Origin: a bacterium
GTDB taxonomy: Bacteria > Patescibacteriota > Minisyncoccia > UBA6257 > 2-01-FULL-56-20
Assembly: GCA_021780545.1 (NCBI GenBank)
Contig: JAJXYP010000052.1
Coordinates: 1-11,872, forward strand
DNA length: 11,872 nucleotides
Direction: 5' to 3'
A program made the translations under genes and the position numbers. Positions 8,334 through 9,432 of this stretch are shown here, piece by piece (within the stretch, counting starts at the first letter, position 1; each line of letters starts with the position of its first letter). The notes beneath the pieces were generated by a model, which made no database searches, was not told the DNA's origin, and saw nothing but the letters and a program-made list of their open reading frames with translations.

Positions 8334-8663
8334 TTAAATGTTTGTTTTGCAATTCTTACAGAAGCGGGATTCTGGATCAATATCGAGAATGTCGGAGGAG
8401 ATTTCTCCGTTGCATTTTTCGCAAGTCCCGTAGGTGCCGGTTTTGATTTTTGCGATGGCGGATTCTACGTCATCAAGCCGTTTTTTTAAGTCGTGAGCGA
8501 CGGCCAGTTGGTTGCCCAATTCTTCTACCTGATCAGAATCATCTTCAGTGTCGATATTGTTACCAAAATCGACAACTGTTTCGTTCTGTTTGATTTCGTT
8601 CAGTATGGTGCGACGCTCTTCCTCGAGCTTTAGTTTATATTGATCAATGTTTTCTTTTGTCAT
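8334..8663 (-). CDS. TraR/DksA-family C4 zinc-finger protein
   Basis: 109 residues. The N-terminal two-thirds is charged and predicted to form a helical coiled coil (KLKLEEERRTILNEIKQNE, then DDSDQVEELGNQLAVAHDLKKRL). The C-terminus holds a zinc finger of pattern C-x2-C-x17-C-x2-C, starting at TGTYGTCEKCNGEI and ending in RFCKNC. This is the TraR/DksA architecture. Classical DksA binds RNA polymerase in the secondary channel with ppGpp to adjust rRNA and amino-acid promoters, but small family members like this are diverse and the exact role is uncertain. A weak promoter can be read upstream: TTGTAA at 8699-8694, 17 bases, TAGTGT at 8676-8671, then 7 bases to the ATG. A purine-rich AAGGA at 8681-8677 is 13 bases from the start, rather far for a ribosome-binding site. 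comM follows downstream. Confidence 0.88.
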   Translation of the reverse strand: MTKENIDQYKLKLEEERRTILNEIKQNETVVDFGNNIDTEDDSDQVEELGNQLAVAHDLKKRLDDVESAIAKIKTGTYGTCEKCNGEISSDILDIDPESRFCKNCKTNI

Positions 8664-8723
8664 GGATATAACACTATCCTTCCCGGGGATTGATTACAAG
8701 TATGCATGGATGAAAAACTTAAA

Positions 8724-8815
8724 TCGGCAATAAACTAACTGGCAATTCTCTCCAAAGATTATAATTGCCGAAATTGACAAAGAATCGGCAATATGATGTT
8801 TTAATATTGCCGATT
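8724..8815. repeat. array of TCGGCAAT motifs in alternating orientation
   Basis: The octamer TCGGCAAT occurs at 8724-8731 and 8785-8792, and its complement ATTGCCGA occurs at 8764-8771 and 8807-8814. A partial copy (TGGCAAT) lies near 8740-8746. The orientations alternate (+, -, +, -), giving two inverted pairs. The second pair is a perfect 12-bp inverted repeat, AATCGGCAATAT (8783-8794) with ATATTGCCGATT (8804-8815), around a 9-base loop. It could be a transcript hairpin or paired protein-binding sites; no T-run follows, so it is not a standard terminator. Confidence 0.8.
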
Positions 8816-8840
8816 AATCCGATAAGCCCATAAATCCTAA

Positions 8841-9058
8841 TGATAAACACTTTTGTTTATCAAAATGTTTCGCGACAAACAATGTTTAGCGCTAAACATT
8901 GTAATTTTCTTAATAAGAATGTTTCGCGCTAAACATTACGATTAAAAAATCTCTCATTAGAGGGTATTCGAATCGATTTTGCAAAGAGTTGTTTTAATTA
9001 TCATTGTTTAGCGCTAAACAATGATAATTAATCAAGTTTAATGTTTAGCGCTAAACAT
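8841..9058. repeat. cluster of six palindromes of the TGTTTAGCGCTAAACA family
   Basis: Six palindromic units lie upstream of yraN. (1) 8841-8862: TGATAAACA/TGTTTATCA, 9-bp stem with 4-base loop. (2) 8866-8881: TGTTTCGCGACAAACA, imperfect. (3) 8881-8900: AATGTTTAGCGCTAAACATT, perfect. (4) 8918-8937: AATGTTTCGCGCTAAACATT, one mismatch. (5) 8994-9031: perfect 38-bp palindrome with core GTTTAGCGCTAAAC. (6) 9041-9058: ATGTTTAGCGCTAAACAT, perfect. Most have no central loop, which fits dimer-binding DNA sites better than RNA hairpins. Centre-to-centre distances are 22, 17, 37, 85 and 37 bases. The two 37-base units (8891-8927 and 9013-9049) look like diverged direct copies. Unit 6 ends 8 bases before the yraN ATG, where a repressor would block transcription. 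Confidence 0.9.
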
Positions 9059-9066
9059 AGTTAGAA

Positions 9067-9432
9067 ATGAATCCAAAACAGATTGGAATTTATGGTGAAG
9101 AATTAGCGTGTATCTATCTTAATAGAATCGGTTTTAGTATTTATTCAAGAAATTTTAGAACTAAGTTTGGAGAGATAGATATTGTCGCCGTAGATGTTAG
9201 TGGCATATTGGTGATTATAGAAGTTAAAACTCTTCGATCGATTTATGGATCGATATTTCTACCCGAAGATAATTTTACAACACAAAAACATAGACATGTC
9301 AATCGAATGGCGGAATATTTTATAGCAAAACACCCCGATTTAATTTTTGATATCGGATGGAGAATTGATTTGATTGCGATCGAAATTATGGAGGACAAAA
9401 AAATAAAACTTCGTCATTATAAAAACATATAA
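9067..9432 (+). CDS. yraN: YraN/UPF0102 family endonuclease-fold protein
   Basis: 121 residues, the normal size for the family. The family pattern is clear: GIYGEELACIYLNRIGFSI (7-25) with E11, RNFRTKFGEIDIVAVD (28-43), then VIIEVKT (49-55), which gives the E-x-K of the PD-(D/E)XK nuclease fold (E52, K54) with D38 as the acidic partner, and WRIDLIAIEI near the C-terminus. YraN is widespread, often near DNA-processing or ribosome genes, and its cellular role is not established; a structure-specific nuclease or Holliday-junction-related activity has been proposed by fold similarity. Base composition is unlike the neighbours: about one third GC by eye, with many AGA, TTA and ATA codons, against more than half in gyrA. 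No Shine-Dalgarno sequence is present. CATAGT (9056-9061), partly inside palindrome 6, is a possible weak -10 giving a leaderless transcript. Confidence 0.92.
   Translation: MNPKQIGIYGEELACIYLNRIGFSIYSRNFRTKFGEIDIVAVDVSGILVIIEVKTLRSIYGSIFLPEDNFTTQKHRHVNRMAEYFIAKHPDLIFDIGWRIDLIAIEIMEDKKIKLRHYKNI

Follow-up and report, generated by a model that had tools for sequence, protein, structure and literature searches.

A putative chromosomal parS array with an altered core beside yraN in a family of Patescibacteriota

Chromosomal parS is described as highly conserved, with the consensus TGTTNCACGTGAAACA (PMC7022226, excerpts). Jalal et al. examined 17 ParB proteins, every one of which favoured the same site over NBS, the Noc binding site; NBS is unlike parS at positions 1 and 6 of the half-site, and its copies occur all round the genome (PMC7383237, excerpts). 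Here we describe parS-like sites in a stretch of patescibacterial DNA of 11,872 nucleotides (contig JAJXYP010000052.1), hereafter the window. Their motif, TGTTTAGCGCTAAACA, agrees with the consensus in the excerpts of PMC7022226 at 12 of 16 positions; it keeps the outer TGTTT/AAACA and the central CG of parS and differs at 16-mer positions 6-7 and 10-11. Because these four of 16 positions depart from the exact consensus, the motif was filed as a variant and not as canonical parS. The first-pass annotation had not recognised it from any known system, a view that the agreement does not support. The locus comprises the following features.

8334-8663, minus strand: DksA/TraR zinc-finger-like gene to the left of the array (Pfam score 19.8 bits; curated cut-off 24.9, hence sub-threshold)
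8724-8813: four TCGGCAA/TTGCCGA repeats, at 8724, 8765, 8785 and 8807
8841-8862: everted repeat TGATAAACA-CTTT-TGTTTATCA, two outward-facing half-site-like arms, outside the 16-bp motif
8866-8881: parS-like site 1, TGTTTCGCGACAAACA, three mismatches to TGTTTAGCGCTAAACA, 6 of 8 pairs symmetric
8883-8898: parS-like site 2, TGTTTAGCGCTAAACA, perfect, 1 bp from site 1
8920-8935: parS-like site 3, TGTTTCGCGCTAAACA, one mismatch to TGTTTAGCGCTAAACA
9005-9020: parS-like site 4, TGTTTAGCGCTAAACA, perfect, at the centre of a perfect 38-bp palindrome (8994-9031)
9042-9057: parS-like site 5, TGTTTAGCGCTAAACA, perfect; 9 bp separate it from the start codon of yraN
9067-9432, plus strand: yraN (UPF0102, Pfam match), which adjoins the array and is probably not its target

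All five 16-bp sites (8866-9057) fit the degenerate form TGTTTNNCGNNAAACA, and the intergenic stretch that holds them (8680-9066, 387 nt) is AT-rich, with 31% GC. The palindromes are genuine: five matches to the core with at most three mismatches were observed in the window against 0.05 expected by chance, and shuffling of the 387-nt intergenic region gave on average 0.0005 sites of the degenerate form, with a maximum of 1, against five in the real one. The three units described earlier as perfect are indeed exact copies of TGTTTAGCGCTAAACA, and the perfect 38-bp palindrome, the two equal 37-bp spacings (8883 to 8920 and 9005 to 9042) and the identity of yraN were likewise confirmed. Six units with a common core had been counted; five of them hold it, and the first (8841-8862) lacks it, being the everted repeat. 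The proposal that the intervening sequences are diverged copies did not stand, as the two 21-nt spacers match at 10 of 21 positions only (by eye); a 57-nt repeat (77%) does span two 16-bp sites, which supply most of its agreement. Within the window, Rfam gave no match at gathering cut-offs and a tRNA search found none. Elsewhere in the window's 675-kb assembly (83% complete) there is no site with at most two mismatches and none of the degenerate form.

We consider it very probable, from the sequences compared here, that the five sites are a chromosomal centromere, that is a putative parS array whose core has been altered. Four observations support this reading: the position of canonical arrays in sister families, transitional sites, proximity to the origin in relatives and the presence of ParB.

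Within the window's family, the degenerate motif was found in 23 of 38 genomes and the reversed control in none of the 38; by the patterns used, 15 of the 38 have no site. One array per genome accounts for 88 of the 96 family sites; of these 88, 83 lie inside yraN or no more than about 1 kb from it, the other five being in G024, where no yraN was matched. The sites thus recur at the same locus in relatives and are not dispersed through the genome, so that neither the absence from relatives nor the generic scatter named by the first-pass annotation as counting against its reading occurred. Core letters vary between genera of the family and several core variants coexist: the half-site cores (n=176) are AG (77), GT (37), GC (18), CG (15), GG (14), TA (9), AT (3), AC (2) and TG (1), with the canonical CA half in 0 of 176. 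Pure AG arrays are seen in G006 and G035, and a search of nine family genomes for exact canonical parS gave no match in any of them. Two close AG sites occur in three records, among them one Liptonbacteria MAG and one Paceibacterota MAG, which places the window among Liptonbacteria-like Paceibacteria. When array-less genomes were searched for perfect palindromes with arms of at least 6, no parS-like family appeared except TGTTTAGATCTAAACA (G047), TGTTGGTCGACCAACA (G051) and AGTTTGCCGGCAAACT (G059). The first of these is surrounded by a 36-bp perfect palindrome at -344 of yraN (L050), another core change in which the central CG is lost too.

Canonical sites TGTTTCACGTGAAACA occupy the place upstream of yraN in other families of the same order, with five copies in G042, seven in G046, seven in G053, five in G058 and three in G060, while G052 and G057 carry mixed arrays before yraN, composed of canonical TGTTTCACGTGAAACA plus variants. 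Transitional sites were found as well. G346 has four copies of TGTTTAGCGTGAAACA, half canonical and half window-type AG, and G430 has two copies of TGTTTAGCGTGAAACA and two of TGTTTCACGCTAAACA, again half canonical and half AG, in both cases near a frame with a yraN-like motif (motif match only). The G049 site TGTTTCGCGTGAAACA joins a CG half, a type also present in the window, to a canonical half, and in G043 a GT half is joined to a canonical one. Core changes similar to those of the family therefore occur in other families of the order. The other-family half-sites (n=216, 120 of them CA) include loci fetched because they matched, and their proportions are not those of a random sample. In the order sample, exact parS was present in 37 of 121 genomes and the form without C at position 5 (non-C5) in 26 of 121, with at least two sites in 14 and a single site in 12; the reversed control matched in 6 of 121, once each. 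The 62 of 121 genomes without a site are counted by the two patterns used, which overlook sites that join two kinds of half, as in G043 and G049, and 57 of these 62 have a ParB_N match (seven of them weak, family f9). Over the 286 genomes of the phylum sample, canonical sites were found in 23 and degenerate ones in 49, and since the reversed control also matches about 43 genomes (by eye), singletons at this level carry little meaning. Places of the phylum sites are those among the matches listed, and non-canonical clusters are claimed for the order only.

On the ParB tree, all 21 labelled arrays of the family are of the changed type. To place the changed class on this tree takes 6 changes (at least 4 when counted by starred branches), and to place all three classes takes 11, against a shuffle mean of 24.0; the core has therefore changed more than once. 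One genome labelled as changed, G050, has its two sites on different contigs, which may be chance.

The array and dnaA lie on one contig in 14 of the 23 site-bearing family genomes, 5.3-52 kb apart (the distance in G013 being counted across contig ends, on the assumption of a circle); in the other nine the two sit on separate contigs or no dnaA was found. The cumulative GC-skew minimum of G013 falls at about 9.3 kb (2.5-kb bins, 83 kb), 0.5 kb away from the array at 9.78-10.05 kb. In G030 the minimum, local and shallow, is at about 277.5 kb (2.5-kb bins, 60 kb), 1.3 kb from the array at 278.7-279.1 kb. In these two genomes the inferred origin is marked better by the array than by dnaA. Over 20 sampled stretches of the single-contig G013, the skew is positive to about 386 kb (the first near zero) and negative from 420 kb, which places a genome-wide change of sign at the same contig end as the array. 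The clustering of chromosomal parS around the origin is thus seen in relatives only. In the fragmented genome of the window, dnaA is on a contig other than the array's, and GC skew in the window climbs at the array without being negative on the left of it. The TCGGCAA/TTGCCGA cluster, situated between the left-hand gene and the array, is also clustered nearby in relatives (L034, L035, L123 and L049); it is possible that these repeats are an origin element.

The putative reader of the array is ParB. Matches to ParB_N were obtained in 36 of 38 family genomes, in all 24 further order-level genomes (one weak) and in 113 of the 121 genomes of the order sample (seven weak, family f9). Symmetric protein binding, as favoured earlier for these palindromes, is supported, and the expectation that the binder's gene lies outside the window agrees with the location of this likely candidate on another contig, where the gene stands at the contig end, behind the C-terminus of a ParA-like gene (CbiA 20.7 bits against a Pfam cut-off of 25.4, which it does not reach). 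The protein, of 358 aa, has the ParB_N, HTH_ParB and ParB_C domains, and it retains every one of the parS DNA-contact residues named in the excerpts of PMC7383237, namely Q162, G170, K171, S172, R173, N178 and R204. Arg173, which contacts G1 of parS (same excerpts), is kept in 132 of 132 aligned ParBs by our reading; among these 132, Arg204 is missing in G025 and G400 and Lys171 in G396.

Residue 184, one of four specificity positions (PMC7383237, excerpts), is a candidate, and only a candidate, for a changed specificity suggested by the alignment. All 36 family ParBs and that of G038 have Asp184; among the labelled ParBs, none of the 32 from genomes with canonical half-sites has it. The labelled counts leave out the 73 of 132 rows that carry no site label. 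Of the 27 labelled ParBs from changed-array genomes, six lack Asp184, every one of them outside the family, and on the tree its gain amounts to about one event: with four independent pairs, a mean of 0.9 agree in direction and none run the opposite way. Columns 226, 225 and 180 of the alignment are also associated with array type. Residue 201 was considered as a cause and rejected: S or T201, usually with E200, is found in most ParBs of the order, including those of canonical-parS genomes. G201 occurs in 14 of 132 ParBs; the genomes concerned have canonical sites or none, apart from G427 with its single non-canonical site, so that the association is weak.

Family f9, with weak or no ParB_N matches, has canonical or non-C5 sites in 0 of 8 genomes, against 59 of the 113 others in the order sample. 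In its members (G045, G350, G368, G384, G398, G408, G417 and G426) chromosomal-type ParB and both kinds of parS have seemingly been lost together. Sites without a ParB_N match were seen in G361 (single contig, 100% complete), G406 (91%) and G430 (66%); in the first of these, two canonical parS sites lie at G361:C1:124646-124888 (L319).

If the array works as known ParABS systems do, ParB dimers would nucleate on the 16-bp palindromes, load with CTP and then spread across the origin region, the array being at or near the replication origin, and ParA would move the ParB-bound origin region. The core would have been altered from CA-CG-TG to AG-CG-CT (also CG-CG-CT and CG-CG-AC), so the cognate ParB would have to recognise, or at least accept, different bases at both inner half-site positions. 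Binding, loading, segregation and a change in ParB behind the new specificity are what we infer from these comparisons.

Other functions may be envisaged for palindromes in such a position. They could be an operator array for a transcription regulator of yraN, as the first-pass annotation proposed, or of the divergent DksA-like gene; site 5 stops 9 bp short of yraN and most arrays found adjoin this gene. Yet the arrays of G024, with no yraN match, and of G351 precede a nusA-like gene (named by our reading), that of G040 is 16.5 kb away from yraN, and one site lies inside yraN in G006, G029, G030 and G031, with other sites up to 0.9 kb off. Moreover, the left neighbour is not constant (a ruvA-like ORF, by our reading, in G006 and G035-G037), the window genome has no second site elsewhere, and sister families hold canonical parS in the same place. 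The yraN operator is therefore set aside, and we regard regulation of either gene as quite improbable. Replication-origin iterons for DnaA or another initiator, instead of or besides parS, would account for the array's nearness to the GC-skew minimum in G013 and G030, for the AT-rich region and for the adjoining TCGGCAA repeats, and the sole TTATCCACA within 83 kb of G013 is 0.2 kb from the array. However, TTATCCACA is absent near the array in the window and in G030, the half-site is that of parS and the sister arrays are exact parS, which leaves iterons improbable.

Sites of the Noc type, serving nucleoid occlusion, come to mind because TIGR04285 Noc is the top NCBIfam match of the window genome's ParB. 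Its 205.7 bits are nonetheless below the Noc cut-off of 315, whereas TIGR00180 ParB is passed (169.9 bits against a cut-off of 58.45); R173 instead of Q173, together with G at site position 1, is the ParB state, and the sites are confined to one locus, unlike NBS. The Noc reading is accordingly very improbable. A REP-type or other mobile palindromic repeat would explain copies in tandem and the extension of some palindromes, but the window genome has sites at the array locus only and the position is constant over many genera, so this last possibility has next to no likelihood. The parS array thus remains our preferred identification.

Among the 47 yraN loci that have 400 nt or more upstream, 9 lack an intact array and have in its stead an opposite-strand gene of about 140-175 codons.

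About -560 to -60 of yraN, opposite strand: LAGLIDADG homing-endonuclease-like genes at L032, L046, L030, L043, L039 and L041 (family f1) and at L106, L108 and L116 (other families)

The carriers are G008, G011, G025, G027, G032 and G033 in the family, and G039, G059 and G061 in three other families. One gene was tested with a profile (LAGLIDADG_1, E 1.4e-8), and the remaining eight were assigned by common sequence. At least two strict sites are present at 0 of the 9 endonuclease loci (G025 has one site) against 27 of the 38 others (Fisher p 1.2e-4, kinship ignored), G012, which has a degenerate endonuclease relative and one site, being counted among the loci without the gene. This relative in G012 (L049, about -500 to -60 of yraN) stands beside one remaining AG site, and its catalytic-type motif looks degenerate, with LFNQKGIFSF for LVEGEGCFTF. 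In several loci, half-matching TGTTTNNCGNTTTACR sites, or their reverse, lie at the ends of the endonuclease gene. Relatives of the endonuclease number 212; the few named organisms among the best 120 of the 212 are Liptonbacteria, Colwellbacteria, Parcubacteria or Patescibacteria. Perhaps single-motif LAGLIDADG enzymes recognise parS or its ParB-bound surroundings, and repeated attack drove new parS and ParB codes in a centromere arms race, a scenario that we find rather unlikely. Gene and missing array are associated in the loci sampled here; that the enzyme cuts parS, or drives its change, is a guess. If the arms race were true, a nearly invariant bacterial centromere would diversify as eukaryotic centromeres do.

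The novelty lies in the sequence of the site, the canonical CA half being replaced by AG, GT, GC, CG and others. Related families with arrays that are canonical, mixed or fully changed offer a natural series for following how a centromere and its reader may change together without loss of the chromosome. Scans with the canonical 16-mer overlook such putative centromeres, and the array flags where the origin probably lies in genomes for which assemblies are almost the only source. Among titles and abstract starts of open-licence PMC papers, we found none on parS in Patescibacteria, Parcubacteria or CPR, and none on an association of a homing endonuclease with parS and ParB.

Compared with known systems, the window array resembles chromosomal parS most fully: both have 16-bp palindromes in several copies with outer TGTTT/AAACA and central CG, a ParB and a ParA-like gene in the genome and, for the array, an origin-proximal place in relatives and synteny with canonical sister arrays. 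It differs in that the family's arrays lack the canonical half-site altogether and carry several cores side by side. NBS is likewise a related 16-bp palindrome, read by a ParB paralogue; the window sites, however, have G at position 1 and occupy one locus, and in place of the Noc signature (Q173, K179/K184, R201) the window genome's ParB has R173, S179, D184 and S201. As in plasmid parS, where the centromere sequence varies between replicons (PMC7022226, excerpts), the sequence varies within the window's family, but here the array is chromosomal, its putative reader is a chromosomal-type ParB and its sequence stays near that of canonical chromosomal parS.
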